A DNA stretch of 21,992 nt from a bacterium (GTDB lineage Bacteria; Patescibacteria; JAEDAM01; Absconditabacterales; Absconditicoccaceae), in the NCBI GenBank assembly GCA_017442645.1, contig JAFRZH010000028.1:1-21992 (forward strand), given 5' to 3'. Shown here piece by piece: positions 195-21,685 of the stretch. The translations under genes and the position numbers were made by a program. The notes beneath the pieces are model-generated. The model was not told the origin of the DNA, did no database searches, and saw only the letters and a program-made list of their open reading frames with translations. Positions within the stretch are counted from its first letter, which is position 1; every line of letters begins with the position of its first letter.

Positions 195-2651
195 ATGCCA
201 ACAATTGCTGCAAGTATCAAAAAATCATGAGTTTCTAAGGAAGATTTTGCTAAAGCTTACAAAAAAATAAGAGGAGAAGAACTTCCCAAAACTGGGAATA
301 TTACAGATGAAGAATTCGAAAAAATTTCCGAAGAAATAAAAAAAGATGGAAATCAAGGAGGCGGATTTTTAAAATCAGATGAAATTCTTTTTGGAGGAAA
401 GAGTTTTTTTTCAGGATTAGGATTTAAAGAAGAGAAAGAAGAAACAGAGAAAGTAGATTTAGATGAATATTTTGATTTAGGGAAAGAAGAAACTGAAGTT
501 ACTATGGTAGATCTCATTTCTTATAGCACAAAAAAGAGTCAAGAAAACGAAGAAAAAAAAGATAAGCTAAATAAACAAAAGAAAAATGAGAAAAAACCTG
601 AAACATATTCTCGCAACACCAAAGCTACAGGAAACATCAAAATCGAACAAAGTACCTATACTGCAAAAGAGAAAAATAAGTCTGAATGATCAAACTTTTT
701 CGAAGAACAAAGAAGAAAAAATGAAGAAAGAAGATTAGCTCAAGAAAATCAAAAATCTCAAAAAAATCCTCGTGGAGAAAAAGATTTCAAAAATAAACCA
801 GAAAAAGAAAATAATACTACTAAAGCTCCTTTTCAACCCAAAAAGAAAAAAGAAGCTACAACATCAGAAACCTTAGTAAAAAAATCTGAACTTTTTATGG
901 ACGATAAAATCACCGTAAAAGAATTTTCTGAAAAAATCGGAGTTCCTGTGACAGAAATTATCAAAGAACTCATGAAAAATAAAATTTTAACCAATATCAA
1001 TGCTTCATTGGATTTTGATACGGTTTCTTTGATTGCTGCAGAATTTGGAGTAGAAGTAAAGAAAAACGAAGTACAACTCGATATGGATAGTTTTATCAGT
1101 GGAGACCTTCAAAAAATTCTTGACCTTGATAAAGAATGTGATCATCTCATCGAAAGAGCCCCAGTCGTAACGGTAATGGGACATGTTGATCATGGAAAGA
1201 CTTCTCTTCTCGATTACCTTAGAAAAACAGGAGTAGCAGAAGGAGAAGCAGGAGGAATTACTCAGTCTATCGGTGCTTCTATGGTTGAATGTAAAGGAAA
1301 GAAAATCACCTTTATCGATACTCCAGGACACGAACTTTTTACCTCTTTGAGAGCGAGAGGAGCAAAACTTACGAATATCGCAGTGATCGTAGTTGCTGCT
1401 GATGATAGTGTTATGCCTCAGACTATCGAATCTATCAACCATGCCAAAGCGGCAGGAGTTCCTATCATTATTGCAATCACTAAAATCGATAAACCAGGGA
1501 AAAATACCGACCAAATTTTATCTGATATCGCTGCTCAAGGATTAACTCCTGAAGCTCGATGAGGAGAAACTCCTGTGATTGGAATCTCATCTAAAACAGG
1601 ACAAGGAATCGACGAACTTCTCGAACAAATTCTTCTCCAAGCAGAAATGCTCGAACTTAAATATAATCCAAACAGATCTGCAGTGGGAGTTGTAGTGGAT
1701 TCGTATAAAGATGAAAAACAAGGGGTGGTGACAAGTATGATTATCCTCACAGGAACTTTGCAAATGGGAAATATCGTTCTTGCTTACAATACTTATGGTA
1801 AAATCAAAAGAATGAATGACCGAAAAGGACATCCAGTGAAAAAAGTGACCGGAGGAGAACCTGTACAAGTGCTTGGATTCGCAGAACTTCCAGAAGCTGG
1901 TAGAATTGTCGAAGTAGTAAATAATGAAAAAGAAGCTCAAAAGAAAGTTGCTTTGATTCAATCTCAGAAAAAAGAGAAAAATGCTGAATGAGCAGTCCAA
2001 GAATTCCTTGCGAAACTCAAGAATGCCGAGAATAACAAAGTTTCAGAATTGCCACTTATTTTGAAAGCAGAAGGAGCCTCAAGTCTTGAAGCTTTGATTC
2101 AAGCAGTACAAACCCTTGAAATGCCTAAAAATGTTGCAATCAAAATCATCCATAGCGATGTAGGACAATTTTCTGAGAGTGACGTGTCTTTATCTCAGGT
2201 TTCTAAAGCTCTTTTGATTGGATTTAATGTCTCTATCAATAGTCTTTTGAAAAAGAAAGCAGAACAGCAAGGAGTTGAAATCAAATCTTTTGATATTATC
2301 TACGAATTAACAGAATATCTTTCAAATCTTCTTCAAGGAATGGTTGAAGTCGAACAAGAAGAAGTGACAATCGGGAAACTCGAGGTGAAAGGTATTTTCT
2401 ATACTTCTTCGAAAGAGATGACCATCGGAGGAATGGTGATTGAGGGTAAAGTAAAAAATAAAGTAAAATTCAGACTCCATAGAGGAGATGAAATTATTTC
2501 CAACGGAGCTATTCTTTCCCTCCAGAGAAATAAAGATCAAGTAAAAGAAGTAAATTCTGGAGATGAATGTGGAATGAAAGTCAAAGTAGGAAAGAAAATT
2601 CAAGAAGGAGATATTTTGGAATTTTATGAATTACAAGATAAAAAAGAGTAA
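195..2651 (+). CDS. infB: Translation initiation factor IF-2
   Basis: IF-2 is the GTPase that brings initiator fMet-tRNA to the 30S subunit and promotes 50S joining. The 818-residue reading contains four UGA codons (228, 687, 1560, 1989), read as Gly. Residues 1-234 are a charged, low-complexity arm, and an IF2_N-like domain follows at about 235-290. The GTPase domain shows G1 GHVDHGKT (329-336), G3 DTPGHE (375), G4 TKID (429, the Thr variant of NKxD) and G5 SSKTGQGID. Domain II and the C-terminal domains are complete. At 1557-1562 CGA-UGA precedes GET where the family has WGG(D/E)T, which supports CGA as Trp. The start is the ATG giving MPTIAAS. An in-frame ATG at 117 is possible, but its extension looks non-coding. 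There is no Shine-Dalgarno sequence. A hairpin terminator follows. Confidence 0.95.
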
Positions 2652-2654
2652 TTT

Positions 2655-2891
2655 CTACCACTCTTCTTCATCAGGGGAATCAGACTCCCCTATTTTTTTT
2701 CATTCAATAATATCTTGCTTTGTATCTGTAGTTTTCTTAGAAGTATTTTTCTTTGGAAAAAGATTTTTTTTTAGTTCAATGATTCACTTTTCCAAGAAAC
2801 CAGGCTTTTCTTCTTTTTCGATGTCTTTAGTATATTTTTCTCCCATAATCAATCCTATGAGTCGTTTATTAAGTTTCTTTTCAAGTGACAT
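2655..2891 (-). CDS. Small charged protein of unknown function
   Basis: An open frame of 78 residues runs from ATG at 2891 to TAG at 2655-2657, with two UGA codons read as Gly (EKG-IIEL and IEG-KKIG). The product is hydrophilic and rich in Lys and Glu, with no membrane segment or signal peptide, and ends in an acidic stretch (SPDEEEW). I do not recognise the family. It converges on infB with three bases between the stop codons, and the infB terminator hairpin lies inside its 3' coding end. It is the last gene after the methyltransferase on this strand (72-base gap). With only TAA and TAG as stops, a frame this long can occur by chance, so confidence is moderate. Confidence 0.5.
2673..2700 (+). 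terminator. Intrinsic terminator of infB
   Basis: A perfect 6-bp stem AGGGGA/TCCCCT (2673-2678 and 2686-2691) encloses the 7-base loop ATCAGAC and is followed by A and eight Ts. It lies 21 bases after the infB stop, within the 3' coding end of the convergent small gene. Confidence 0.85.
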
Positions 2892-2963
2892 GGGTTGTAG
2901 AAAAAATAAAATTAATCTTTTATCATTGTAAAAAAAACACATCAGAAAACAAGAAGTATTTTG

Positions 2964-3509
2964 CTATTTATAAAGCATTACAGCATCAAATCCCTGTTTA
3001 TTTTGGATGATTTTAAAAGGAATATGCTCCTTAAATTTGAAAGTATTGGAAATAATCACTGCATCTTCCTTTTTATTTTCAAAAACTCGATTCTCTATTT
3101 TTTCCATTTGTTCCGCTCGAAGATAGATATAAATATAATCATAGTCTTTTAGATTCGCTTTCAAAAAATCACTCTTTATAAGAGTAATATTTCAGATTTT
3201 TCCTCTTTTATTTAAAATTCTTCAAAGGGAAAGAGCGAATCGATTGATATCATATCCAGTTGCCTGTTTCAGATTAAATTCTTTCACAAAAAATCTTAAA
3301 GCCTTACCATCTCCACATCACAAATCTATTAATGTAGTATGAGGCTTAATTTCAAGAAATTTCATAAGATTCAAACTTCTATCGAAACTGGAAATATAAG
3401 GAGCTTTCTTTTTTTTAAAAAAAAGAGGAGTTAAAAAATAAAAGTAAAGAAAGAGAAGTCCTAGTACAATTAAGCCTCATATTCATAAGACAAGATATTC
3501 TTTATACAT
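2964..3509 (-). CDS. Membrane-anchored class I SAM-dependent methyltransferase, FAM173-like
   Basis: The 181-residue reading has five UGA-glycines. A hydrophobic N-terminal segment (about residues 5-27, LVLGIGGLIVLGLLFLYFYF) is a likely membrane anchor. SAM motif I is DLGCGDGK (62-69), with its first Gly from UGA. ATGYDIN follows as the acidic motif II region, then SDFLKANLKDYDYIYIYL and AEQMEKIENRVF. The pattern of a GYxxN motif, a D-F/L-W/K-like segment and a YLxxxxMEK segment resembles the FAM173/ATPSCKMT lysine methyltransferase family, which in eukaryotes modifies ATP synthase subunit c. The substrate here is unknown. Three CGA codons occur (3242, 3119, 3089) and may be Trp. The start is ATG at 3509; a 201-base TTG-initiated ORF within it is only the UGA-free 3' part. 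Confidence 0.75.
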
Positions 3510-3813
3510 AAAACATTTTTAAAAATAAATCGTATCATAATAATAGTGATTTTGTATTGAGATGCAATTCTTGATAAGATTATCTTTTTTTTAGTAAAAT
3601 TTCTCTTGTTTTTCTGCTCATTTTCTCTATCAATATAAAAGGACTAAATAGTTCGTGAATAGTAAGTATTATTTTCTTTACACAACGATTTAGGGAGACG
3701 GTATAATCTTTCCTAGAAAGATTCGAGCTACCCACTTTAAAATTTCGTTGGAAAATCTTTCATTTGCGGCTATTTGGTTTTTTAGAAAATTTTAAAATCC
3801 CATATAAAATCCT
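3510..3813. other. Intergenic region between divergent genes, with a candidate structured RNA element
   Basis: This 304-base AT-rich gap separates the methyltransferase (-) from the RNHCP gene (+). I see no convincing coding frame. Bases 3683-3750 can fold: the closing stem is CAACGA/TCGTTG, then GGG/CCC, then an apical hairpin AATCTTT-CCTAG-AAAGATT (7 bp). It matches no riboswitch or tRNA that I recognise, and the strand is undecided. A TATAAA sequence ends about six bases before the RNHCP ATG, which would fit a leaderless transcript, but no matching -35 box is clear. Confidence 0.4.
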
Positions 3814-4122
3814 ATGAAAAAAATCAATGAAAGCTTTACTTGTATTCATTGCGGACAGTTTGTCCCTTTAGCGCCCAAAACTTGTAGAAATCATTGTCCA
3901 AAATGTTTTTGTTCACTCCATTTAGATGATAAGATTCCAGGAGATAGAACAAGTACTTGTAAAGGGAAAATGTTTCCCATCAATTACGAAATAAAAAATG
4001 GAGAATTTAAAATTCTTTTTCAATGTGAAACCTGTGGAAAATTACACTGGAATAAAAAAGCAGAAGACGATGAAATTGATACCCTTTTAAAAATAGTACA
4101 AGAAAAAAGAATTAATCCATAA
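3814..4122 (+). CDS. RNHCP domain-containing zinc-ribbon protein
   Basis: The 102-residue protein carries the signature that names the RNHCP family: FTCIHCG near the N-terminus, then RNHCPKC and later CETCGKLHW. These CxxC pairs look like zinc-binding knuckles. The family is small and cytosolic with no established function. No UGA codon is used and the frame is complete under any code. The start ATG has no Shine-Dalgarno sequence, and an AT-rich -10-like TATAAA lies just upstream. The last 11 bases overlap the 3' end of the convergent sortase gene. Confidence 0.85.
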   Translation: MKKINESFTCIHCGQFVPLAPKTCRNHCPKCFCSLHLDDKIPGDRTSTCKGKMFPINYEIKNGEFKILFQCETCGKLHWNKKAEDDEIDTLLKIVQEKRINP

Positions 4123-4948
4123 TTCTCTTTGCAAAAACCATCATTCTCTTATCCGTTCTTCAAATAGGATAACATCCCATAAGAACGAGATACTCCTCAT
4201 CTTTATGAGCATAAGAAAGATAAGTTTCATTAACTTTTTTAGGAGTAACAACAACCGTTTCTACAACTTCATACTGATAAAGTTTTCCCTCTCGGACCAA
4301 TTCAATAGTATTTCATTTACGAAGAGAAGGAATATTACGAAAAATAGTCCCATAAGGATTCTTTTCTCGATACTCTTGAGAAGTATGTCAAAAAAGGAAA
4401 ACCGTTCCTTTCTCTCCAGGATTTGCACTTCATGGATATTTTACGACTCCATTTTTAAGTTCCTCCGAGAAAACGCCTTTTTCTCATGCATCTTTCAATT
4501 CAGCTTCCACAATAGGAGCACTAAGACTAATTTCTTCACTAATAAGTCTATTGGTTGGAGGAAGAATATTAAACTCAAAATCATAAGTATCAAGTTTTGA
4601 TCTAAGATATTTTTGTATTTCTTCAGCGGGAGCTTTTTCATTGGAAACGATTCCTTCATATTGAGAAATCAAATTTTGAATATTTTCTTCTCTCTTCTCC
4701 TTTAGAAGAATCATTTGTTCAGAAGTTTGTTCTTTTAAGGTAGAAATAATACTATTTTTAGCACTAGAATGATGAACAGCATCTGAAAAAGAATCTTTCA
4801 TCAATTGTGCGTTAGTAATAAAATAGGTTCCACAAAAAATAAAAAGAAAAATAATCAAAAAAACTTTCAGTTCATTCAAAACTTTTTTAAAAGAAAAAGT
4901 TTTGGTATGTTGCATTTGATATTCTAAATCTTCCAAAGTTTGATACAT
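4112..4948 (-). CDS. Sortase family transpeptidase
   Basis: Sortases cleave a C-terminal sorting signal and attach surface proteins to the envelope or polymerise pilin. The 278-residue product has one membrane segment (about 32-50), an extracytoplasmic region of predicted helix, then the catalytic barrel: GHTS with His188, NPYGTIF, and MGCYPIGRTDKR with Cys259 and probable catalytic Arg268. Five UGA codons encode Gly, including those in GHTS and CYPIG, so only the N-terminal half is open under the standard code. A CGA codon precedes EKNPYG (4369-4367), where sortases often have Trp. The start chosen is ATG 4948 (MYQTLED); a GTG at 4963 is in frame. No LPxTG-type substrate is seen in the window. 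Class not assigned. Confidence 0.85.
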
Positions 4949-5006
4949 AAGAAACAAAAACACAAAATAAAATCCATCTTTATTTTACACAGAAAAAAAA
5001 TAAAAG

Positions 5007-5045
5007 AAAAAAAGTCTGACTCTTTTAAAAAAGAAAAGTTGACTT
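5007..5045. repeat. Inverted repeat carrying the AAAAGTCTGAC motif
   Basis: AAAAAGTC near 5009-5016 pairs with GACTTTTT near 5041-5048, and the inner bases are partly complementary (CTTTT/AAAAG). It lies between the divergent sortase and SbcC-like genes, so a terminator role for neighbouring genes is unlikely; upstream control or an uptake-type repeat are alternatives. Arm edges are approximate. Confidence 0.4.
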
Positions 5046-5082
5046 TTTAAGAAAAACCTTTTTATCTTCATTGGAAATAAAA

Positions 5083-7656
5083 ATGCAGAGTGTACCAAAT
5101 CTTATTGCAATTTATTATCAAAATATTGGTCCTTTTCAAAAATCCTGTTCCCTTCTCTTCGATGAGGGGAAATATTTGATCAAAGCACCTATTGGAAGTG
5201 GAAAATCCTTTCTCTTTTTTGATGGTCCAACCTATGCTCTCTACGGAAGTACAGGAGATAAAAAGACAACAGGGAGTAAAGGAAGAGATATTCTAAATAA
5301 AAGAAGCTCTCAGGGAGAAATATCACTCCTTTTTGAAGTAGATTCCTTTTACTATCTCATCAAAAGGAAAATCTCTCGTAAAAAAATTCAGTCATCTTCT
5401 GCTTCTACATTCTATAAAGTCCATTACCTCGGAGAAAATATCCTACAAGATATTAGAAAAAAAATCCAAAAATCTGATATTCTCTTGCGAGATTACAATA
5501 TTATTGAAGAAATCAGTCATTTTAACGATCTTTTCTCGTTCGAACAAGTTTCATTCAAAAACGAAACAGATTTACAAAATAATCTCAATGCAAACCTCCT
5601 TCTAGATAAAACCGTTTTTTTAAACACTATTTTTCTCCTTCAAGACTCTAAAAATGTTTTCGAATGCGATCCTCAAGAAAGAATTCTCATTTTAAAAAAT
5701 GTCTTCTGACTTATGGGAATTGATGCGGGAAAAGAGATTTTATCTGATGAAAAAAGAAACCTTGAATCCAAGAAGAAAGTTCTCGGAGACTTTGAAAAAG
5801 AGAATGAAAAGCTCACCTGACAGTTAAAGAATCTCTACAAAAGCTATAATGATTTAAAAAAATGTGATTATTTAAAAGATACATTTTGAGACAGTGAAGA
5901 TTTTTTCGATGAAATAGAAGAATTTATCGATAAAATTGCATTGGATAATTTTTCAATTTCAAAACTCGATAAAAATATTTTCCTCAATATCAAAAAAATA
6001 ATTGGAGAAAAAAATAAAGATTTTCAAGCACTTTTAACAGCAAAAAAACTCCTCACAGAACAATACACAAGCCAAAAACTAGGGCTTCAAACCAATCAAG
6101 AAGAACAAAAAAGGAATACCCTTTTGCTTGAAGATCTAAAAAATAAAATCAAAGAATTTGATGAACATAAAATTGAAAAAGCAAAACAAGAAAGAGATCA
6201 GATTTTTTCCTCCTTTTCTCAAATTGATAAAACGGTAAATTACGCTCTTTTCAATAAAGCAACCCAAAACAATACATTTAAACGAGAAGAAAATGAAGCC
6301 CCTCAACAAATCCAAAATTTTGAAGAAGCACGATTATTTTTAGAAAAATGTGCAGAAAAAGGGAAACATACCAAACAAGAAATTACTCACCTCCAAGACC
6401 TCCAAAAGCAAAACCAAGAAAAACAACAATTTTGGAATGAAAAACAAAAAGGTGAATTAGAAAATCTCAAAGAAAAACAAAAACTTTTACAACAAGCCGT
6501 AGATGAAGCGAGACAAAATTACAAAAATTGCAGTACCAATATCGATAATGAAAAACTTTTTTCATGTGACAAGATACAGGGAAACTGTCCTTATATCACA
6601 TTGATAAATAAAAAACATTTCGAAGAAAGGGAAAAAGAACAACAAAAATTTTTAGAAATTTTAGAACAAAAAGAAAAAGAACTCAAAGAATTTAATTTCA
6701 CAGAAAAATTTCAAAAAAAAGAAGAAGAAAAATCTGATTACGATTTTGAGAAGAAACATCAAGAACTCAGTGAAAAAATCAAAAATTCCGAGAAACTTTG
6801 TGAAGATTTGAGAGATTTTCTCTTACAAGCACAATACTCAGAGATGAAACAAAAAAACGAAGAAAGAAGTAACATGTTTAAAGAATTTCAAATCAAAGAT
6901 AAAATTTTTAACCAATTATTTGAAGAAAAAGAGAAAATCCAAAAATATCAACAAGAAATAATTGCAGGAGAAACGAAACTTGAAAATCTAAAAAAGCAAG
7001 AAGAAGAACTCCAACAACAATTTCAAAAAACGCAGGAACAATTACAAAAACAAGAAGAAGAACTTCAAAAGATATCCTCTCAATCTTTAGAAAAAAATAA
7101 TCTAGAAATAGAAAATTTTTTAAAAAGTTATGAAAATATCGAATGACTCCTAGCAGATTTTTTCGAAAAAAAACAAACCATCAAACAAGTTGAAGAAAGA
7201 CTCGAAAAAATCAAAAATCTCTACAACATTCTCAATTCAGAATTGGTAGTTTATTCTTTTCAAAATTTTCTTCCTGTTTTAACAGAACATATCAATATTC
7301 TCTTATCAAGTATTGTTTCTTTTTCTCTCAATATGAAACCAGAACCTAAAACAAATGGAGATCTAGAATTAAAAATTCTTTTCAATGATGAAAAAGGAGA
7401 AAGAGACGTTTCAAGCCTAAGCTGAGGACAAAAAACAGTATTAAAACTTGTGCGAATGCTCGCGATTTCTAGCTATTTAAAGACTCCCCTCCTCTTTTTA
7501 GATGAAACCATCAATAATCTTGACGGAGAAGCTGTTTCTCGCGTTGCAACTTTAATAAATAACTTTGTAAAAAGTAATACGATAAAATTTTATACAATTA
7601 CCCACAATAGTGAAATCCAAGCAATGAACATTTGGGATCAAACCATACATTTTTAA
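5083..7656 (+). CDS. SbcC/Rad50-like coiled-coil ATPase
   Basis: The 857-residue SMC/Rad50-type protein probably acts in DNA end processing or repair. The N-terminal ATPase half has P-loop APIGSGKS (35-42). Long Lys/Glu/Gln-rich coiled coils follow, interrupted near the middle by FSCDKIQGNCPY (Cys495 and Cys502). This sits where Rad50 has its CxxC zinc hook but has six residues between the cysteines. The C-terminal half has LSGGQ (779-783, first Gly from UGA), Walker B LLFLDETINNLD (Asp807, Glu808) and an H-loop ITHNSE. There are five UGA codons (5707, 5818, 5887, 7144, 7423). The start is ATG 5083; an upstream TTG at 5071 is also in frame. No SbcD/Mre11 nuclease gene is in the window. It could be a distinct CPR RecN/SbcC relative. 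Confidence 0.85.
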
Positions 7657-7690
7657 TTAACTTCCTAAAAAAGCAGAAGTTAAAATTTTC
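7657..7690. terminator. Hairpin at the convergent 3' ends of the SbcC-like and pilin-like genes
   Basis: A perfect 8-bp inverted repeat TTAACTTC/GAAGTTAA (7657-7664 and 7676-7683) with an 11-base loop is followed on the plus strand by AATTTTC. It starts one base after the SbcC-like stop codon and overlaps the last codons of the opposite gene. The T-tract is weak, so efficiency is uncertain. Confidence 0.5.
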
Positions 7691-8196
7691 ATAATTGCAT
7701 AAGAAAACGTAATAATCACAACACCAATAATAGCATTTTTGATAGCACTCGATCCTTGTGAAGGACCACTGTTATGAAAAATTGCAACTGCATAACAATA
7801 TCATGCATAGAGAATCATAACTGCCCCAATAAGAATTCATACCTGAGAAATAAATCTAATAAGATAAATAAGATACTCTAAAATAGAATCCCAATTAATA
7901 ACTCATGCAGCCATTTTTTCTTCTAAAGAATACTTATCACTACCAGCAATTTGCTGATATCTCTCCATAACACTACTTCAACTATCTACTTCATCAGAAT
8001 CCACTTCTTCTCAAACAATTTTTTCCGTAGCTCAAGAATATTCTTTTCCATTACTCACAATTTTTGTAATTTTTTGAATATTGGTTTTATTGGTAACTTC
8101 AGGAAGAATATGAAATTGATTTTTCACATCAGCATAAACTCCCAAAGAGTAAAATGCCATACAAAAAAGCAATCAAGTTAAAAGAAATTTTTTCAT
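7657..8196 (-). CDS. Small secreted two-helix membrane protein, VirB2/TrbC-like pilin candidate
   Basis: The 179-residue reading uses seven UGA codons as Gly, so no long frame exists under the standard code. An N-terminal signal peptide (MKKFLLTGLLFCMAF...VYA, cut near residue 22) is followed by a polar region rich in Ser, Glu and Asp. Two hydrophobic helices lie at about 112-134 and 150-172, joined by a short polar loop (HNSGPSQGSSAIKNA). This layout matches the VirB2/TrbC pilin family, common in CPR genomes, although no sequence motif proves it. It lies 27 bases after the secreted protein at 8224-9177 in the same direction and is probably co-transcribed with it. It could instead be an uncharacterised membrane protein. 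Confidence 0.6.
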
Positions 8197-8223
8197 ATTT
8201 CTAGACAAAAAGGATAAAAAGAG

Positions 8224-9177
8224 TTATTTGCAATTTGGAGTAATTTTCTGAGAAAGTTTCATGATATTACCAAAAGAATCAGAAATTTTGATAAGAGTTT
8301 TCGAAAGATTCTCATTTCTCAATTTTATATAAGAAAGATTATTTTGAGTTCGGGTTTGAAAATATCTCAAATTACTTGAAACCTTCGTATAAATAAAATC
8401 AGAAATATTCCCCCCAATTCTTTCTTCTACCACAGATACACACTTATTTTGAACTGATTCACGAGTGATATCATCAAAATCTTTAGCCGCTCAATTTGAT
8501 AAAAAATAGAAAAAAGAAGCCAGATTACAAACATTAGTATATCTATCCAATAACGTTACCCCCGAAGAACTATAATTCGACAGAATTGTTTGATTATTTC
8601 GCTGCCCTCCATCTCCACTCCAAAAATAATAAATTTTATCTTCTACCGAAGGGTTATTCAAATACCCTAAAAGTACTCCTGTAGTAGGAGTCCAATATTG
8701 TTGATAAAGCCTATCTATTTCACTATTAGATTGTCCTTCTTTTTTTTCCTTAATTTCCTTCAATTGAGTATATCGCTCTAAAGCAATCGGATCCGGTTGT
8801 ACTTCATCCTTATATACTGCTTTACCGTCCAATTTTCTCATTAAAATATCAAAAAAATGATCAAAAATAAAGAAAGATTCAGGTACTTGATCTTTTTCAA
8901 GGTGGTCAGGATTATTTGTACAGATTTCTCCATGATTTTTCTGAAAATTTTCATTTCGACAACATATGGTCTGAAGATTCAAAAAAGCTCTTTGATATTC
9001 CTTTTCAGAAAGAACTTTTTCTAAAACATGAGCATGTTTTTCATTTGCATTTTGATAAGAGGTTAACCAAATTCAGGAATAAAGAGCCAAATCACAATTC
9101 CCCAATTTTTCTTCAGCAAAAACACTCCCAAAAAAGGTTCCCAAAAGAATAAAAATGAAAACAAATATTTTTTTCAT
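8224..9177 (-). CDS. Secreted protein of unknown function
   Basis: The 317-residue protein has a clear signal peptide (MKKIFVFIFILLGTFFGSVFA, cut before EEK) and no further membrane segment. Cysteines occur at NCDL, TICC, EICT, NVCN, NKCV and the C-terminal PNCK, compatible with disulfides outside the cytoplasm. Two UGA codons are read as Gly. The middle section is acidic and Gln-rich, and the last 80 residues look helical. I do not recognise a family. It is the first gene after a sigma70-like promoter (9221-9249) and is followed by the VirB2-like gene, so the two may form one surface system. Confidence 0.7.
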
Positions 9178-9220
9178 GAATCTTACAAAAATAAAAAAAC
9201 TTTAATATAAAACTTTATTC

Positions 9221-9249
9221 ATTATAAGACTTTTATTCTTTTTTTTCAA
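9221..9249 (-). promoter_or_regulatory. Sigma70-like promoter of the secreted-protein/pilin-like operon
   Basis: Read on the minus strand, TTGAAA (9249-9244) and a perfect TATAAT (9226-9221) are separated by 17 bases. Transcription would start near 9214, about 37 bases before the ATG at 9177. It is about 65 bases from the divergent pilus promoter, so the intergenic region 9178-9379 serves both operons. Confidence 0.7.
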
Positions 9250-9315
9250 ATTTCTCCAACAATTTATCAAAATCTTTACAAAAATCTCTACAAAATCTTT
9301 AGAAGATGTGAAAAT

Positions 9316-9344
9316 TTGCTTTTTTTTATCGTTTCCAATATAAT
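9316..9344 (+). promoter_or_regulatory. Sigma70-like promoter of the type IV pilus operon
   Basis: TTGCTT (9316-9321) and a perfect TATAAT (9339-9344) are separated by 17 bases. Transcription would start near 9351, about 29 bases before the first ATG at 9380. No Shine-Dalgarno sequence lies between. Confidence 0.7.
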
Positions 9345-9379
9345 CAAGTATCTTTTATTTTAGAACTTACAGACCTATT

Positions 9380-9937
9380 ATGGCAACATCAATGTCAATT
9401 GAAAATAGTAAAAAGTACTTTTTCTTATTTCTAGGGATGCTTATCATTGGATTGGGATATTGTGCATACTTATATGGATACGCAACCATTGGAGAAAGAA
9501 GTCTCGTAGCATTGAGAGAAGAATCATCTCAACTTCAACAACAAAATGCAACCTTTTTCCAGGATCCGCTTTTTGAAAAATTTTCCTTTAGCAAAAAACT
9601 AGAAAACGAAAACTTTCAAATGCCATGGTCTGATCATATCGAGAAAGTAAGTAGAATTTTGGAAGATATTACAGACGTAGGGACAGGAAGTTATAACATT
9701 ATTTTAGAAGATTTTCAAATTTCATTGGAAAGTATTAGTTTAAAAGGATCAGTTTCTAGCCTTCGTGTACTTTACAATATGTCCAATAATGCTAATGCAA
9801 AAAAACCTTTACTCCAAAGATTTCAAGAGTTAGAATTTTTGAAAGATATTGCAATTCAGACCTATGATAAAAAAAATGGAGAACTAGGATATAGTTTCGT
9901 TTTAACTGCTAAAGTAGAAAATAACTATGACAAATAA
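9380..9937 (+). CDS. PilN-like type IV pilus assembly protein
   Basis: The 185-residue protein has one membrane segment (about residues 14-34, FFLFLGMLIIGLGYCAYLYG) after a short cytoplasmic tail. A predicted coiled segment and a periplasmic domain follow, with ISLESISLKGSVSSLRVLYN, a pattern typical of the PilN/PilO ferredoxin-like fold. These proteins form the inner-membrane alignment complex of type IV pili. The family's N-terminal INLLPWR motif is absent, so the assignment rests on topology and position. It is the first gene after the promoter at 9316-9344 and overlaps the next gene by 11 bases. No UGA codon is used. Confidence 0.6.
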   Translation: MATSMSIENSKKYFFLFLGMLIIGLGYCAYLYGYATIGERSLVALREESSQLQQQNATFFQDPLFEKFSFSKKLENENFQMPWSDHIEKVSRILEDITDVGTGSYNIILEDFQISLESISLKGSVSSLRVLYNMSNNANAKKPLLQRFQELEFLKDIAIQTYDKKNGELGYSFVLTAKVENNYDK

Positions 9938-10913
9938 TGCACTTTTAGAAAGATTAATGGGAAATAATCCTTGACAACAAGTTTCAACATCCAGTAGTGA
10001 TACAAGTTCTTCTCCCAATACCACGGGGAACTTTTCCATGAGTCCAACGGTAGTAGTGGAAGATGAAGCCACAACCATCAGAGTCGTAACGGTAAAATAC
10101 AAAATCTATACTGCTTGTATCCTTTTGATTATGGGAATCATCGGAATCAATTATTACCCAAATCTGCAGAAAAACTACGATAATATCGCAAAACAAAGAG
10201 ACAGTTTTACAAAAGAAATTAATCGTTTACAACAAGAACATACCAACTTAGTAGCAGATCAAGCATTTATGCAAGAAATTGTAGAGGAACATGATCATTT
10301 ACTAAGATGTTTAAACGAAGAAGATACAGAAATTTGTAGTCCCCTTTGGCTCAAACGAAGTGATACCACTGAAGACACCATAAAAAAATGTACCCAATGA
10401 TCTCTCTCAAAAGATGAAGAAAGTGAATGTGAACTTGCTCGTTATAAACGAAATAGAGGACTTTCTATTCCTATTTCATTTCTCCAACTCCATTCACTTT
10501 ACGCTAAAAATATGATTATCGATGAAAGAAAAATTTTAAGAAATCTGAATGAATACCTCATTCAAGATGGATTCGAAAAAGGATATGAAGCTAAGAATGG
10601 AACCATTCGTTCTATCAATATTGGAAATCCCATAGTACAAGACGAAAAAGGAGTTTTCTTTTCCGTTCCAATTTCATTTACCATTGTTTTCAATAATCAA
10701 CAAGATCTCGTTTCCTTCGTACATAATGTAGAAAGAAAATTAATTGAAAATCCTATCGACCGTATCCTCTATAAAATTCAAACAATTTCTTATGACATCG
10801 TCGACAGTAATGAAGAACAAACAAGTACAATGGATTTGATAGCATATTATTATTACAATCCAGAAAATGAAAACTATAATCTCGAAGAAACAGACCTTGA
10901 TGAAGAAAATTAA
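9927..10913 (+). CDS. PilO-like type IV pilus assembly protein
   Basis: The 328-residue reading has two UGA-glycines (9972, 10398). It has a Ser/Thr-rich cytoplasmic N-terminus of about 50 residues, one membrane segment (about 59-76, IYTACILLIMGIIGINYY), a coiled coil (LQKNYDNIAKQRDSFTKEIN...), and a C-terminal domain with FFSVPISFTIVFNNQQDLVS resembling the PilO periplasmic fold. The tail is acidic. A Cys-containing insert (CLNEED...ICSP...CTQ) lies between coil and domain. PilO pairs with PilN to connect the platform to the secretin or cell wall. The start ATG 9927 overlaps the PilN-like stop, suggesting coupling. Two CGA codons here could be Arg or Trp. Confidence 0.6.
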
Positions 10914-10949
10914 AAAAAACGCTCAGACTTTTACCTTTTATTTCTTTCC

Positions 10950-12074
10950 ATGGAATCTTCTCCAAAAAAAACTAAAAATTCTGACTTCTTAGATGGAATC
11001 ATTAGAGACTTACTTGCTTCTATAGATAAGTCGAATTTTAATGGGAAAGAAAAAATTCTCTTCTACAAAGAATTGGTATATATGCTCAAAGGAGGAGTTT
11101 CTCTAGTGGATACCATGGATACTCTCTATCACAGTTCAGAAAATCAAGCTATCAAAATGGTAGCAAAACAACTAGAATATTATGTAAGACAAGGAAAACC
11201 TCTTTCTTATGGAATCAGTAGACTTCCAGAATATTTCGATGAAGGAGACGCCGCCATTATCAAAACCGGAGAAACAAGTGGAAATCTTCCAACCGTTCTT
11301 TCCTCTCTCGCAGAAGAATACGCCTATATCGACGAAATTAAACAAAAATATATTGGAGCAATGATTTATCCTTGCTCTTTGATCGTCATTTCCGTTGCAG
11401 CAGTTATTTACCTTTTTGCTTCCGTACTTCCAGGAATTTTTGGAACCATTATGTCTGCAAACGTAGAACCTCCAACCGTAACCAAAATTTTGAAAGATAT
11501 TTCAGATTTTTTCGTTAATTATTGGAAAATAATGTTATGAGGACTAGGATTAGCAGGATTAATAGGATTTTTCTATTCCTCTACGGAAAAAGGAAGAAAA
11601 AGACTCTATACTTTTTTGATCAATCTTCCCATCGTTTGAAAAATGACCAATTCCTATTACCTCATCAAATGGGCAAGATACCTCAAATTAATGAATGGAG
11701 CAGGAATGGACTACGTTGAAACCTTCCGTCTTCTCCGTGATATCTTACAAATTCCCCTTTATCAACAAATGATTGAAGACGTGTTAGTTGATATTTCTAT
11801 GGGAAAACCATTAACAGAACCTATGAAAAAACATGATGACATCATTCCAGGAAATGTTATTGCATTGATCAAAGTGGGAGAAGAGACAGCAAATCTCGAA
11901 CATTCTATGGACAATGTGATCGAAATCTACCAAGAAGAACTCGATAATTCGATCAAAAACTTTTCTAAAGCTATCGAACCAATTATCCTCGTTTTCGTAG
12001 GAGGAATCGTCTTAATGATCGCTATGGGAGTTTTTGGACTTATCTTCTCCGTAATGGAATCCGTAGGTTTGTAA
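10950..12074 (+). CDS. pilC: Type IV pilus inner-membrane platform protein PilC (GspF family)
   Basis: The 374-residue protein has two GspF repeats. The first contains FYKELVYMLKGGVSLVDTMD and EGDAAIIKTGETSGNLP; the second has LIKWARYLKLMNGAGMDYVE and GNVIALIKVGEETANLEHSM. Membrane segments lie near 138-160, 197-213 and at the C-terminus (PIILVFVGGIVLMIAMGVFG). PilC is the platform on which the PilB and PilT motors act; neither motor is in this window. Two UGA codons (11538, 11637) encode Gly in a membrane helix and in LPIVG-K, splitting the gene under the standard code. It follows the PilO-like gene by 36 bases, a gap holding an inverted copy of the AAAAGTCTGA motif. Confidence 0.92.
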
Positions 12075-12094
12075 TTGTATCGTAAAATAAAAAA

Positions 12095-12673
12095 ATGAAA
12101 AAAGTCTGACTAAAACAACATATTCTTTCTTTCAAAAAAACATCTCTTACTAAGGCGTTTACCTTGATCGAGATGGTTTTCGTAATGATTATTTTGGGAA
12201 TCATGACAATGATGACTCTAAAAATGACAACAGAACAAATCGAAAAAGTACAACATAAATCCGTAAAAGAATCCCTCCTCTCTACTTACCAAAAATATTA
12301 TACCAAAAATCTCACTTCCTCTTATCATAAGGGGAAACGTTATGAAAACCTTATCATTACATTTGCAACAGGAGAGAATCACTTTGATTTTACTTTCAGT
12401 GGGAAAAATCAAACAGAAGAAAATACCGGGACTTTTGAAGGAGCTTTTACTATCGAAGAACTTTCTTTTAGTGGAGGTACAGTCCCAAAAGAACAGATCA
12501 CCCTCACCTTAACTCCCTATCAATTAGGATGTTCCATTTCAGATAATTCAGATAATTCAGATAATTTAAAACTCAAAATTCTCGTGCAAGAAGAAAAAGA
12601 ATATTGCTTTGAAATTTCTCCCAAAACCTGTAGAATGACAGGAGGAGATGATTGTACAACATCTGAAGAGTAA
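12095..12673 (+). CDS. Type IV prepilin-like protein
   Basis: The 192-residue protein begins MKKV-UGA-LKQHILSFKK and carries a class III (prepilin) signal, TKA|FTLIEMVFVMIILGI. The leader is about 25 residues, cleavage is predicted before Phe, and Glu sits at mature position 5, followed by a hydrophobic helix. The residue before the cut is Ala instead of the usual Gly. The head region is polar, with a 9-base triplicate encoding SDN three times and three Cys near the C-terminus. The ATG at 12095 is preferred over the ATG at 12164, which would remove the signal; this needs UGA 12107 read as Gly. It is probably a major or minor pilin of the adjacent system. Confidence 0.8.
12539..12565 (+). repeat. 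Three tandem copies of TCAGATAAT in the prepilin gene
   Basis: Three perfect 9-base units stay in frame and encode Ser-Asp-Asn three times in the pilin head. Copy number could vary by slippage without frameshift. Confidence 0.85.
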
Positions 12674-12702
12674 AATCCATAATTTACCTTAATATTTTAA
12701 CC

Positions 12703-13398
12703 ATGTTCAAAAAACGCCCCAAAAAAATAAAAGCATTTACTCTCCTTGAAGTACTTTTTGTGATTGCAGTTTTCTGAGTGGGGATTTTAGCAGTACTCCA
12801 CGGGATCAATCAAACCGTCCTCCACAAAGAACTCACAAAAATGAAAATCCAAGCTTCTTTTCTCTGAAGAGAAAGTATCGAAATATTATATAATGTCAGA
12901 AAAGGAAATGCTTACAAAGAACTTCCTTGGAACTGCATTCCTAAATATCTTAATACCCAAAATAGCAATACCTCAAATAACAACATAGAAGATTTCTGCA
13001 ATGGACAACGAGGAAGTTGAGGGTTACTAGGAACAGGAGTAGGATTAAAAATAGCAATGGGGACGGGAAATGAATTTTTTAGCCTGAAAACTGGGGACAT
13101 TACAAATAATTTCGAAACAAACTTCGAAACATTCAGACTTTATGAACTTTTTTCTGGAGATTATATTACTTACGTATATTCATGAGAATGTATAAAAGAA
13201 GAAAAGGAAAACGGTTATTCTCTCTGTGAAGATACGCCCTTTGCAAGATATGTTATCTTCAAAGCTCTCACTGAAAGTTGAACAGAATTACCAACCGATA
13301 AAGTAGTAAAAGTAGAATCTCACATTCTCTATAATAATAGTTCTCTCCTAACTGGAGAAGAAGTTATCGAAACCATTCTAGGAAATTACGATATTTAA
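12703..13398 (+). CDS. Type IV prepilin-like protein (PilV/GspI-like minor pilin)
   Basis: The 231-residue reading has five UGA-glycines, so under the standard code nothing long is visible here. The N-terminus MFKKRPKKIKA|FTLLEVLFVIAVFGVGIL is a prepilin signal: a short basic leader, Ala at -1, Phe at +1, Glu at +5 and a hydrophobic helix. EVLFVIAVFGVGIL followed by a short head resembles the PilV/GspI class, but head sequences are poorly conserved. Four Cys occur in the head. It lies 29 bases after the preceding pilin gene and 16 bases before the next. One CGA (NGQ-CGA-GSGG) could be Trp. Confidence 0.8.
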
Positions 13399-13414
13399 AT
13401 TGATACTCTCCACA

Positions 13415-14086
13415 ATGAAAAAACTCAAAAAAGCTTTTACCCTCATGGAAACCCTGATCGTATTAACCATCATCGGGATTCTTTCCACCTCTCTGATCAA
13501 AGCATACACGATTATCTCAGAATTAGCTTTTACCATAGAGCAAGAAAAAAACTTACAAAACGAAGCACTTCTCCTCGTACAAACTTTACAATCAATTGCA
13601 GACGATGCAACCATTGATTATAGTAAATATAAGGGAACACTTTCCTGAAATAATCTTACAGGAACGTTGTATTTGACAGGAGGTCATTACTCTTGAGCAT
13701 CTCTCTACACTACAGGAAATTGTATAGAGATTAATAATACTGCTCGAAGAATCCAAACAAATATGAAAGTCTCTGAACAATTATTTGAGAATTCATGATG
13801 TCAACTCGTACTCAATCTCGAAGGGAAAGAAATTCCTTTACTCAATACTCAAGCATTCGTAACCACAGAAGCCCTCTTCAAAATTATCCCTTACGATTCA
13901 ATCAAAGAAATCTATAGTGGAGCTACGGATAATAATACTATTTACAATCAACTGTATCCAACTTCCTTTATCATCTATCTGCACCTCTATTCTCATTTCT
14001 TTGAAGAAGAGGGACAAAATCGCATCGATTTACCTTTAGAACTTTTCTTTAATATGAATGAATCATACAATGATACAAGTATTTAA
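13415..14086 (+). CDS. Type IV prepilin-like protein (third pilin of the operon)
   Basis: The 223-residue protein starts MKKLKKA|FTLMETLIVLTIIGIL, a prepilin signal with an eight- or seven-residue leader, Ala before the cut and Glu at mature position 5. The helix continues as STSLIKAYTIISELAF, then a polar head with TGGHYSGASLYTTGNC and a second Cys. Three UGA codons (13646, 13688, 13796) encode Gly. ATG 13415 is used; a TTG at 13400 is in frame but less likely. It resembles PilW/GspJ minor pilins by operon place only. Its end overlaps the PilX-like gene by 29 bases. Confidence 0.78.
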
Positions 14087-14960
14087 AAAAAGAAAAAAAA
14101 ATAAAAATCTGAAAGGAAATATTTCTATCCTTTTTATCTTCATTTTACTCGCTACTTCGACGATTGTCCTCTTAGCAATGAATGAAATCAGACATCTTAT
14201 GGAATATGGAGATACTACCGATGATTATTTTAAAATGTATTACCTCTGAAAAGCGGGGATAGAACTCGCAATGACAGAGGTGCAAACCCGTGGATACGGA
14301 TTTAATTGGAGTATTAAAAGTGGAGACGCTATCTTACAAAATTTCGATACGGGAGCAATAGAAGAAAATGAACCGCAAAATTACTTCACCTATACCATTA
14401 CAGGAAGACCAACGCAATTTACTGCTCAACTCCAAACAGGCGATATCTTCATGATCCCTCTATTTTATGATTCAGGGAACAACAATACCTCTACAACAAT
14501 AACTCACTCTTGAGTTTTAGCAACAAAAGAATATTACCATAATTACGAACCCCCAAGTAATATTACCTTATCATGATTTAATAATAATGTACTTTTTACC
14601 TTAATGCAGTTCGATTCTGGACTTAATACTATGGAAGAGATCTGTCAATATACATGAGAAAAACTAAACTGGGAACAGAATCAATGTTTTACTGGAATAC
14701 TAGAAGCTATAAAAACAAGTGACCCTTCTAACAACAGAGCATATCTCGCAATAAAAAATTATACTTGAAACGATACTCTTACTATCACATGACAAGACAA
14801 TAGTACAAATTGAGGAAAACTATGAGTACCTCTCTATAAATCAGAAATCACCGTAAATGCTCACTATCAAGATGAAGAAATGGGAATGGAAATAACATAC
14901 AATAGACCCGTTCCTGCCTTCATGGGAATGAGTGCATGATTAGCGAATTCACAAAACTAG
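14058..14960 (+). CDS. PilX-like type IV pilus-associated membrane protein
   Basis: The 300-residue reading contains nine UGA codons, the most in the window. A basic N-terminus (KKRKKNKNLKGN) precedes a membrane segment ISILFIFILLATSTIVLLAM, then NEIRHLMEYGDTTDDYFKMYYLGKAGIE. This is the arrangement of PilX_N-type proteins, in which the helix is followed by Tyr/Ala-rich sequence and AGIE. The rest is a Thr/Asn-rich extracytoplasmic domain that looks beta-rich, ending ANSQN. No FTLIE prepilin motif is present. The last gene of the pilus operon, it ends in TAG four bases before the convergent FemAB-like stop. ATG 14070 is an alternative start. Confidence 0.65.
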
Positions 14961-16001: not shown

Positions 16002-16370
16002 TTAAAAGTCTGACTTGTCATCAGCTTCATACTCCACTTCAAGTTGAATTCTTTCAGGGACAATGGCCTTAGGTACTATAATTTCCAAAACATTATCAAA
16101 AGTCAATTTACTTTGAATCCTATCAAAATAAACCTGAGGAGGGATATCTATAGTTAATCTCACAGGACCTCGATAACATTCTTCCTGAATAGCGATACAA
16201 GAATCTTTCAAAAGTCTTTTTTCTCTCATTCCCTTGATAGAAATTTTATAATCCTCGATTTTAACCTCAACCGATTCTTTTTTAACTCATCCTAAAGGAA
16301 CAAGAATAACCACTTCTTGAGGAGATTCATACATATCATAAGGGACTGAAGGAATTTCGCTTTCTTTCAT
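16002..16370 (-). CDS. Small heat-shock protein, HSP20/alpha-crystallin family
   Basis: The 122-residue protein is an ATP-independent chaperone (holdase) by family. PYDMYESPQEVVILVPLGG and VEVKIEDYKISIKG form the first strands of the alpha-crystallin domain, followed by EECY-CGA-GPVRLTIDIP and FDNVLEIIVPKA. In CPR HSP20 proteins the central motif commonly reads ECYWG or ECFWG, so CGA at 16172-16170 fits Trp (residue 67). One UGA encodes Gly in VPLGG. It ends in DDKSDF, whose codons form an inverted AAAAGTCTGAC motif. It lies 18 bases after lepB in the same direction. Length is at the short end of the family. Confidence 0.75.
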
Positions 16371-16388
16371 AAGTAGAGAATAAAAGAA

Positions 16389-17725: not shown

Positions 17726-17753
17726 TTGATTTCTCAAAAAGAATTCTTATACT
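17726..17753 (+). promoter_or_regulatory. Sigma70-like promoter of the rplJ-rplL operon
   Basis: TTGATT (17726-17731) and TATACT (17748-17753) are separated by 16 bases. Transcription would begin near 17760, just before the L10 leader fold. Confidence 0.65.
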
Positions 17754-17759
17754 AATATT

Positions 17760-17881
17760 AGCTTTACCTGAGAAAGTAGGTCGCGGAAGCGATAAATCCT
17801 ACCGAGGTTATCTTATAGAATCCGATGATGTCAATCATTTTTCTGTATAATAACCGCCTCTAAAGCGGATATTTTTATTTT
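17760..17881 (+). ncRNA. Ribosomal protein L10 leader with attenuator
   Basis: The fold is an outer ACCT/AGGT stem (17766-17769, 17805-17808), internal GA-rich sequence on both sides (TGAGAAA and CGA) typical of a kink-turn, a GTAGG/CCTAC stem (17776-17780, 17798-17802), and a hairpin TCGC-GGAA-GCGA capped by a GNRA tetraloop. CCTACCGAGG is characteristic of the Rfam L10_leader class, which L10(L12)4 binds to repress its own operon. Downstream, CCGC-CTCTAAA-GCGG (17854-17868) followed by ATATTTTTATTTTT forms a terminator-like hairpin 15 bases before the rplJ ATG. Regulation by attenuation is inferred. An ATGAT/ATCAT hairpin (near 17825-17838) could take part in switching. Confidence 0.85.
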
Positions 17882-17895
17882 TGAATACTATTTGG

Positions 17896-18408: not shown

Positions 18409-18458
18409 TGATTTCACAAGCTTTAAAAATGTATTTTATTCATTATTGTTATTAAAAA

Positions 18459-18845: not shown

Positions 18846-18860
18846 TATTTCAAAAAAAGA

Positions 18861-18915: not shown

Positions 18916-18927
18916 ATTTTCAAAGTT

Positions 18928-19230: not shown

Positions 19231-19261
19231 CTTCCCATAATTAAAAAATAAAAACACCTAC

Positions 19262-19289
19262 CTTATAAATAAATTATCACGAAAATCAA
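19262..19289 (-). promoter_or_regulatory. Sigma70-like promoter of mscL
   Basis: On the minus strand TTGATT (19289-19284) and TATAAG (19267-19262) are separated by 16 bases. Transcription would start near 19255, about 25 bases before the chosen ATG. It lies just after the PLD-family stop. Confidence 0.6.
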
Positions 19290-19303
19290 ACCTATTCATC
19301 AAA

Positions 19304-20347
19304 CTAAAATGGTTTCATTTTTTCCCAATCCTTTTCAAATTGAGAAAGAAATTCTTCGACAAATTGAGGATCTATGAGGATAATTCAGATTTCTCTATTA
19401 TTATCTAAAGAATTTTGAGAAAGATTCATGGAACCAAGAATAAAATACCTTCTGTCGATCAAAATCATCTTGGTATGATTGTAAAATTGCGTAAATTTAC
19501 GTGCAATTCAAGGTCCAAAATATTCGACAAGATCAGTATTATCATCCGTATCTGCCACTAAAAATCTCATTTTCACTTTAGAAAATTGCTGTTTCAAAAT
19601 ATCTAAAAGAGCTAAATCAGTAATATACTGCGTTTGAATAAGGATTTCTTCTTGTGCATTATTCAGAAAAAGTTCAATAATCTCTCTACAATTCTGCGGA
19701 CAGACCACCAAATTAGGATGAAGATCTTCTTTTGCAAGTGGACTTCCATTTCGATCCCCTGAAAAAAGTTCCTGCAAATTTTTCAAAATTTCCGCATTCT
19801 CTGTGTAGAAAAAATGTTCACGATTGGATTCATAACTTGATTTGGTAAGATTCGCCGTCTGAATCCAAGCTCCGACCTCATTCAAAGTAATTTTACTATG
19901 GGTATACGTGGTTCCCATTTGTTTATCGGATTTAAATTCAATCCCCTGATATCACGAAAAATCGGATTCCAACTGCTTAATCGGATTGGAATATTGTTGA
20001 TATTTTTGGTCTTCAATGATAACTTGAATCTTTTTCCCTTGACCAAGAAGTTTTTTGAACTGATCTTTGAAAAAAGGACTCGTAAATTCATACGTTTCAA
20101 GCTGTAAATTTTCCGAAGTTTGAGATAAAAAATCTTGATACTTTTGGTAAAGGATTTCTTGAGGTCCTTGAAGAAAGATCCCTGAAACATTCTGCACTTG
20201 AGGAAGAAAAGTTTCTCGAAGAAGCTCAGACTTTTTTTCTTTTTCTCAAATCTGGTGCCAACCTTCTCAAAATTTGAATTGCACTCAAAAAACACAAAGG
20301 CAAACAAAGAAGACAAAAAAAATAAGGAAGTAATAACGATTTTTCAT
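19304..20347 (-). CDS. Phospholipase D-family protein, exported or membrane-anchored
   Basis: The 347-residue reading contains six UGA-glycines. A hydrophobic N-terminus (MKNRYYFLIFFVFFVCLCVF) is a signal peptide or anchor. Two HKD-like motifs are present: YTHSKITLNE (His150, Lys152, with Glu157 in place of Asp) followed by IQTANLT and SNRE, and NHTKMILID (His291, Lys293, Asp298) followed by LGSMNLS and NNREIG. The family includes phospholipases, cardiolipin synthases and nucleases, so the substrate is open. HPNLVVCPQNCREIIE and ILIQTQYITD separate the halves. A CGA codon at FSGD-x-NGSPL (19753-19751) falls where related proteins often have DW. It begins 9 bases after the helicase stop and is probably co-transcribed with it. 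Confidence 0.85.
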
Positions 20348-20356
20348 AAAAAAAGA

Positions 20357-21685
20357 TTAACAGTCTGAATTAAAATAGGTATTCGTTAAAGTTTGTTGTT
20401 TCGCCTGTTGAATGAAGTCCAAAACTTGTTTATCGAAAATAAAATCTCTCATTTGCAAAGGCCTCGTCATCGAGATCCCCTCCAAGGTTTTACATCTACT
20501 CAAAGCGACATACGTCTGTCCATGAGCAAAAATTCCTCCCGTAAAATCTAGAATCACTTTATCAAAAGTCTTTCCTTGCGATTTATGAATCGTACAAGCC
20601 CAAGCGAGTTTAAGAGGAACCTGATTGAAAGATCCAACCGTTTCCGTCTCAAATTTATTTTTCGTATCATCGTAATAATATTGACTTACTTTCCAATTGT
20701 ACGGAATGACTTCCACTGTATCCCCTCAAAAAATTTGCACTCGGATTTTTTCTTCTTCTAGTTTTAGAACAAGTCCCAACGTTCCATTTACTCGCCTTTC
20801 CGCTGGATCATTTGCCACAAACATCACTTGAGCTCCAATTTTCAAGGTTAATTCTGCTTCAGTAGGATACGAAGATTCATTGATTGCACCTTTAATCGTC
20901 GCAAAATAGGTTCTTTCCTGTGTTTCTAACTCATCCAATTTTTCTTGATTAATCTGATTCACGATCGCATTTTTCCCTGCTAAATAAATATCTCACGGTT
21001 CAAGATTCACCTTTGTTTCTTTGACCTTTTGATTGAAAGATTGAAGCATTGCTTCATTCACTTCTCCTTCTCTAATCTTATTGAGAAAATCGATAAAATA
21101 CTCATCCGTCTGACGATAAATCTTCTCCAATTCATGATAAAAAAGCTTAAATTTCTTCTTTCCCATCACTTTACTTGAAAAGAAATACGGACTTTCATAC
21201 CCATTCATTTTCAAAATTTCTTCTTCATCTCTAGTCACTACCGGAGGCAACTGAAATAAATCTCCAATCAAGATCATTTGCACTCCTCCAAACGGAAGAT
21301 TATTTCCACGAACAATTCTCAAAAACTGATCCATATAATCAAAAAGATCTGCTCTCACCATCGAAATTTCATCGATCACAATACTATCCAATTCCGTATA
21401 CATCGGATCCCCGATCAAATATTTAGCTCTCGCTTTAATCTTTTGGAGCGTCGTTTTGGGAGAAAATTTAAAAAAAGAATGAATCGTCTGACCTTTTGCA
21501 TTGAGTGCAGCTACTCCCGTTGGAGCAAGGACCACCACTCTTTTTTGAGTATGAGCAATAAACGTGCGAAGAAGTGTCGATTTTCCCGTTCCTGCTTTTC
21601 AGGTAAGAAAAAGATTTGCATCCGTATGCTCCATTCCATATAATGCAATTTTCCACCATTCATCCAATTTTAATTCCATCTTCAT
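20357..21685 (-). CDS. PIF1-like/RecD2-like superfamily 1B DNA helicase
   Basis: The 442-residue helicase has motif [11 protein letters not shown] (28-37, first Gly from UGA), motif Ia [20 protein letters not shown], motif [10 protein letters not shown] (Asp105, Glu106), motif [14 protein letters not shown], a late segment [23 protein letters not shown], and motifs [16 protein letters not shown] and [13 protein letters not shown]. These define the PIF1-like group, 5'-3' helicases that act on replication and recombination intermediates. Homologues generally read RWVNGT(I/L)G, so CGA at 20794-20792 (residue 298) fits Trp. Three UGA codons split it under the standard code. The start is ATG 21685, with a second ATG two codons later. 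A PLD-family gene follows. Confidence 0.92.

Follow-up and report, generated by a model that had tools for sequence, protein, structure and literature searches.

The 21,992-base stretch of DNA analyzed here (contig JAFRZH010000028.1; hereafter the window) carries genes of a tiny, uncultured bacterium in which, according to an original prediction made from the sequence alone, CGA codons mean tryptophan and UGA codons glycine. Its guanine plus cytosine (GC) content is 31.8%, and the fraction covered by long reading frames rises from 0.49 with standard stops to 0.90 when TGA is left open. On the forward strand, the IF-2 gene (117..2651) matches the Pfam families GTP_EFTU, IF-2, and IF2_N and contains two CGA and six TGA codons. 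A Pif1/RecD-like helicase gene, matching Pfam PIF1, lies on the reverse strand at 20357..21685. Further Pfam matches correspond to a methyltransferase, an RNHCP protein, a sortase, a T2SSF/PilC protein, a FemAB-like protein, HSP20, signal peptidase I, SSB, the ribosomal proteins L10 and L7/L12, MscL, and a PLD-family protein. The match of an SbcC-like ATPase remained below the cut-off. As ribosomal proteins and IF-2 are present, these genes point to a chromosomal origin. The IF-2 protein is 80% identical to a relative named candidate division SR1, 81% to one named Absconditabacteria, and 82% to one labelled Peribacteria (P0124, P0125; P0127). Two relatives of the helicase also bear the name Peribacteria, and those of the methyltransferase are named Gracilibacteria and Absconditabacteria. 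Based on similarity rather than on a tree, the source organism is tentatively taken to be a member of Absconditabacteria.

Codons were counted in 24 reading frames chosen from the list of open reading frames (ORFs), amounting to 6,764 codons, stops included. They comprise 25 CGA, 20 CGT, 5 CGC, 122 AGA, 11 AGG, 32 TGG, and 71 TGA codons. The original prediction had put the number of CGA codons at about twenty, which is too low; it had seen no CGG in frame, and there is indeed none. AGA makes up 122 of the 158 AGA, AGG, CGT, and CGC codons, and with a GC fraction of 0.318 and AGA as the main arginine codon the window falls within the range given for the Absconditabacteria code (GC 0.26–0.38). 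Reading CGA as tryptophan raises this residue from 0.47% to 0.84% of codons. Twelve CGA codons are located in six genes supported by Pfam (IF-2, methyltransferase, sortase, HSP20, PLD, and helicase), four in the SbcC-like ATPase gene, and nine in frames lacking such a match. The six codons on which the prediction was built, at 1557, 1821, 4369, 16172, 19753, and 20794, are all in frame.

Residues aligned with the CGA codons

We scored each codon by a Codetta-type test, in which log-odds are summed over aligned columns and the relatives are assumed to use the standard code; the Codetta survey, published in eLife in 2021, is reportedly by Shulgina and Eddy. Except for the helicase, relatives were taken from genomes in the phylum of G002, a genome with an Acidobacteriota contig. 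Matches were obtained in 40 of 40 genomes for IF-2 (30 loci taken), and in 101 of 149 for HSP20 (30 loci taken), 31 of 149 for the methyltransferase (30 loci taken), 23 of 149 for PLD (26 loci), and 7 of 149 for the sortase (7 loci). For the helicase, 100 of the 120 matches listed were retained (P0021–P0120), the 20 closest, which may share the code, being dropped. Sequences could be aligned for 30/30 IF-2, 30/30 methyltransferase, 29/30 HSP20, 25/26 PLD, 6/7 sortase, and 100/100 helicase relatives, and coverage was sufficient to score 10 of the 25 CGA columns.

Summed over these ten columns, CGA obtained +4.9 nats for Trp, −1.2 for Tyr, −4.3 for Phe, −6.8 for Thr, and −10.0 for Arg. The margin of 14.9 nats between Trp and Arg was equalled by none of 20,000 random ten-column sets, among which Trp was the best residue in three, and by none of 20,000 draws from the 43 columns of arginine codons. 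In the same run, AGA (n = 31) and AGG (n = 4, with Lys close behind) scored as Arg, CGT as Arg (+13.6, n = 7), TGG as Trp (n = 6), and TGA as Gly (+6.5 nats, n = 14). CGC occupied a single column, in which Arg ranked fourth at +0.6. The expected residue was returned for 48 of the 51 codons that had five or more columns, the misses being TCA, AAC, and ATA. The finding set beforehand as refuting the reassignment, CGA columns occupied mainly by Arg, was looked for at these 10 of the 25 sites, with no refutation.

At IF-2 residue 481 (TPEA-x-GGET; 1557..1559, +), the 30 distant relatives have Trp in 24, Tyr in three, and Phe in three, and five displayed solved chains have Trp in four and Tyr in one. 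Helicase residue 298 (AER-x-VNGTLG; 20792..20794, −) faces Trp in 64, Phe in 25, Tyr in eight, and Arg in three of the 100 distant relatives, as well as two Trp and three Tyr in five displayed solved chains. PLD residue 199 (FSGD-x-NGSPL; 19751..19753, −) is covered by 14 relatives, with six Trp, four Cys, two Ala, one Thr, one Ser, and no Arg; an alignment based on the internal repeat of this protein was confined to the HKD motif and stopped short of this residue. The column of helicase residue 315 (20741..20743, −) is variable (15 Leu, 14 Thr, 9 Ile, 9 Glu, 8 Lys, 7 Val, and fewer of the others among 100), with a Trp-minus-Arg score of +0.86. In the methyltransferase, residue 90 (3240..3242, −; +0.78) faces Pro in 20 of 30 distant relatives, and among 24 close ones seven Arg, four Pro, two each of Phe, Leu, Val, and Trp, and single occurrences of others. 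Residue 131 (3117..3119, −; +0.14) faces 19 Leu and four Phe among 28 distant relatives, and 11 Leu, seven Phe, three Arg, two Trp, and one Met among 24 close ones.

In the public translations of 119 close relatives, both CGA columns of IF-2 contain Trp or Arg exclusively: 110 Trp and nine Arg at residue 481, and 58 Trp and 61 Arg at residue 569 (ND-x-KGHPV; 1821..1823, +). The latter column differs with distance, 24 of the 30 distant relatives having an acidic residue (19 Asp and five Glu). Among near-invariant IF-2 columns, Arg occupies 70 of 238 cells in Trp columns, 161 of 6,013 in Lys columns, and a single cell in all others; the Trp columns of this count are none other than those of the two CGA codons, residue 569 alone contributing 61 of the 70 Arg cells. 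In the helicase, Arg was found in 16 of 238 cells of near-invariant Trp columns, 48 of 593 for Lys, 11 of 833 for Gln, 2 of 356 for Glu, and none in the rest. Here the Trp columns are residues 331 and 362, both encoded by TGG in the window, with Arg in 6 and 10 of 119 relatives, respectively. The CGA column at helicase residue 298 has 69 Trp, 25 Phe, 17 Arg, and eight Tyr in 119 close relatives. Columns of conserved Phe, Tyr, Gly, or Leu were free of Arg. The presence of Arg at Trp columns of close relatives fits CGA codons rendered as Arg by the databases. At the column of the window TGA codon 1560..1562, 25 of the 119 public IF-2 translations (P0122–P0240) have Trp, and some database entries of this group seem to have been translated with TGA as Trp. 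Public proteins of the group seem to suffer from two mistranslations: Arg is entered in Trp columns, and certain entries give Trp for a TGA that means Gly. Conserved positions are thereby corrupted in annotation, in structure prediction, and in databases used for proteomics.

Weighing the meaning of CGA

Reading CGA as Trp and UGA as Gly best accounts for the codons of the window itself, and the residues of close relatives agree. We therefore consider it very probable, as judged from sequence comparison, that the window is chromosomal DNA of Absconditabacteria (SR1) or a close relative, in which UGA means Gly and CGA means Trp, with AGA and CGU still meaning Arg. These four meanings are supported by alignment; AGG and CGC probably remain Arg codons as well.

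Several observations weigh against this reading. The margin is carried by three columns, IF-2 481 (+5.97), PLD 199 (+5.64), and helicase 298 (+3.69); the remaining seven total about −0.4, the score spans 10 of the 25 CGA sites, and the standard code of the distant relatives is an assumption. Four of the 100 helicase rows (P0024, P0043, P0079, and P0092) have Arg in at least one Trp column and may themselves use the reassigned code. The close relatives are known from translations, not codons, and many of the close IF-2 rows look like near-duplicates, so that their cells are not independent. A tRNA search of the window found none. Three of the ten scored columns prefer Arg to Trp: methyltransferase 141 (−2.30), IF-2 569 (−0.58), and sortase 224 (4292..4294, −; −0.28), the last being uninformative, with two Thr, two Val, and one Asp in five relatives. 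Together with the Arg found at some CGA columns in public translations, this preference is what might be expected if CGA still meant Arg, as in National Center for Biotechnology Information (NCBI) translation table 25, and the Trp columns had been lost through ordinary substitution. We regard this explanation as very improbable, given the total score of −10.0 for Arg versus +4.9 for Trp. Moreover, the relatives show Arg at Trp and Lys columns and in no cell at the conserved Phe, Tyr, Gly, and Leu columns, a pattern that a mistranslated Trp codon fits better than substitution does.

A further point against Trp comes from HSP20 residue 67 (EECY-x-GPV; 16170..16172, −; +0.98), a Tyr column with Tyr in 22 of 29 relatives and neither Trp nor Arg in any. 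The original prediction had described this column, IF-2 481, and helicase 298 as typically Trp, a description that the relatives aligned here do not support for HSP20. CGA could accordingly be thought to encode another aromatic residue, Tyr or Phe, and Tyr does rank second in the overall score. Trp is nevertheless ahead of Tyr by 6.1 nats, and both IF-2 columns contain nothing other than Trp or Arg in close relatives; we regard a Tyr or Phe meaning as very improbable too.

Some CGA codons occupy columns where distant relatives accept charged or small residues. In addition to IF-2 569, this is the case of methyltransferase residue 141 (3087..3089, −), which faces 14 Lys, four Gln, and two Arg among 26 distant relatives, and 12 Trp, six Phe, five Arg, and one Ile among 24 close ones. 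Such sites would be compatible with an ambiguous CGA, read partly as Trp and partly as Arg by a tRNA(UCG) whose identity is mixed or shifting, and, according to the available part of PMC8629427, translational ambiguity can be settled only by experiments. We consider this unlikely, as CGA is found where Trp is conserved in the GTPase region of IF-2, and as the alignments of 119 IF-2, 119 helicase, and 24 methyltransferase relatives contain no CGA column with invariant Arg. This agrees with the original prediction, which had found no invariant Arg encoded by CGA. The Arg residues it named use AGA (IF-2 412 and 414, helicase 397, signal peptidase I 87, and a sortase residue that is number 269 and not 268 as first given), and helicase residue 191, an invariant Arg in relatives, is encoded by CGT in the window.

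RNA editing, rather than decoding, might also produce Trp, and CGG-to-UGG editing is known from plant organelles. A single C-to-U change converts CGA into UGA, which scored as Gly here and not as Trp. On these grounds editing was rejected, and we find it scarcely credible.

The other CGA codons are all in frame. In the sortase, residue 199 (EY-x-EKNPYG; 4367..4369, −) faces a gap in five displayed alignments. PLD residue 44 (20216..20218, −) is outside the aligned part. The SbcC-like ATPase gene has CGA at residues 140 (5488..5490, +), 405 (6283..6285, +), 421 (6331..6333, +), and 795 (7453..7455, +), the last being past the LSGGQ stretch and facing Leu in five displayed SMC alignments. In ORF 8224–9177, four CGA codons specify residues 74 (8956..8958, −), 135 (8773..8775, −), 193 (8599..8601, −), and 276 (8350..8352, −). 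A small ORF at 2655–2942 has one at residue 27 (2862..2864, −), and ORF 9927–10913 has two, at residues 144 (10356..10358, +) and 175 (10449..10451, +). Two pilin-like ORFs, 12652–13398 and 13400–14086, each have one, at residues 120 (13009..13011, +) and 116 (13745..13747, +). More generally, a run of seven ORFs at 9380–14960 (+) resembles a type IV pilus set; one is T2SSF/PilC according to Pfam, and the others, including four pilin-like ORFs at 12095–14960, were named by appearance.

Published codes and proposed decoding

Reassignments of sense codons are very rare among bacteria. The codon-table survey that the original prediction mentioned does exist: Codetta predicted both CGA and CGG as Trp in Absconditabacteria (eLife 2021; PMC8629427, available part of the text, as for the statements on this paper below). 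A 2026 paper restates this for Absconditabacterales, in the part of its text available (PMC13092985). The reading of CGA as Trp in the window is thus correct, and already known in kind. In the open-access literature, the CGA/CGG change of this clade turned up in the available text of these two papers only, most of the subscription literature being outside the search. The available main text of two further papers on such bacteria mentions neither CGA nor CGG (PMC11452946 and PMC8080830).

Like the published Absconditabacteria code, the window combines UGA as Gly, CGA at Trp columns, a low GC content, AGA as the main Arg codon, and CGU as Arg (PMC8629427). CGG, also predicted as Trp in the published code, is absent from the codons counted in the window. 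The CGA rate of the window, 37.0 per 10,000 codons, stands at the published upper limit of "less than 37", a figure restricted to codons aligned to Pfam (PMC8629427). The window therefore contributes site-level support to the published prediction, with CGA at this ceiling and CGG absent. NCBI table 25 has UGA as Gly in common with the window and differs in keeping CGA as Arg; consequently, all 25 CGA codons of the window would be mistranslated under that table. In Anaerococcus and a clade of RFN20 Bacilli, which are also of low GC content, an Arg CGN codon has likewise been taken over by Trp. There, it is CGG that has moved, being read by tRNA(CCG), and CGA is presumed to be Arg, whereas in the window CGA has moved (PMC8629427). 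For the sister group Gracilibacteria, CGG has also been predicted as Trp in some members (PMC8629427).

In the model published for the clade, tRNA(GCG) serves the Arg codons CGU and CGC, and tRNA(UCG) and tRNA(CCG) serve CGA and CGG (PMC8629427). Following this model, CGA of the window would be read by a tRNA whose anticodon is UCG and which would receive Trp from tryptophanyl-tRNA synthetase. This tRNA would act beside an ordinary tRNA-Trp(CCA), a tRNA-Gly(UCA) reading UGA, and an Arg tRNA reading CGU and CGC. A scan of the window against Rfam at the curated cut-off returned the L10 leader alone. This ordinary ribosomal-protein leader (L10_leader, RF00557; 51.9 bits) is located at 17749–17886 (+), upstream of the L10 gene.

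TGA-recoded phage contigs

A helicase scan of IMG/VR identified a phage contig, L010, with TGA at helicase Gly columns, and phage relatives were gathered with the terminase and the portal. Another phage, IMGVR_UViG_3300003309_000015 (G151; L264/L267/L268), shows an increase in long-frame coverage from 0.33 to 0.81 and from 0.19 to 0.60 in two pieces when TGA is left open. Its 76 alignable TGA sites face mostly TGA (56 comparisons) or Gly codons (37), and its portal gene is devoid of TGA. The 10,950 codons of G151 include 19 CGA and 18 CGG, 29 of these 37 sites having no aligned partner. CGG is opposite TGG in nine of nine comparisons at three sites, one of which has CGG in L010 too. CGA, in 16 comparisons at five sites, is never opposite TGG; it faces AAA in five, AGA in four, ACT in four, CTT in two, and CAA in one. 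At a portal column, one CGA corresponds to AGA in six of six relatives. As three of the partner contigs are mutually 95–99.9% identical, these comparisons represent about two lineages. The records of these phages yielded no tRNA.

From these codon alignments, G151 possibly assigns Trp to CGG and Arg to CGA, a split unlike that of the window and in line with the CGG change predicted for some Gracilibacteria. If so, the CGA/CGG pair would have been split in more than one way among organisms and phages with UGA as Gly, CGA becoming Trp in the lineage of the window and CGG becoming Trp, with CGA as Arg, in G151; we give this proposal about an even chance. No report of such a split in phages of these bacteria was found in the open-access literature, and the available main text of a paper on phage codes mentions neither CGA nor CGG (PMC10746230). 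The observation may be new and, if true, would allow the split to be tested in genomes of a second kind.

Other scans returned little. No solved structure matched the L010 terminase, and a scan with the minor tail protein yielded, besides the phage itself, a single short partial match. An IF-2 search of genome contigs recovered a single locus, L001, from an Acidobacteriota with the standard code and 53% GC, and no Absconditabacteria DNA. No match was obtained in an IF-2 alignment search of viral contigs, in a tblastn search of plasmids with HSP20, or in a megablast of window positions 117–12074 against phages. Scanning for tRNA(UCG) sequences that end in G73-CCA gave at least 120 stretches; among the 120 listed, 14 passed a filter on GC content and coverage with TGA open. 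Those inspected among the 14 were ordinary-looking phage tRNA clusters, except L049, in which no tRNA was found, and these candidates were dropped.

Three other contigs showed changes in long-frame coverage. In L007 (IMGVR_UViG_3300012979_000041), opening TAG raises it from 0.59, the value with standard stops, to 0.92, a pattern suggestive of TAG recoding in a phage contig. In L015 and L016, both of about 46% GC, it rises from 0.63 to 0.93 and from 0.69 to 0.95, respectively, with TGA open, and these are possible TGA-recoded contigs.

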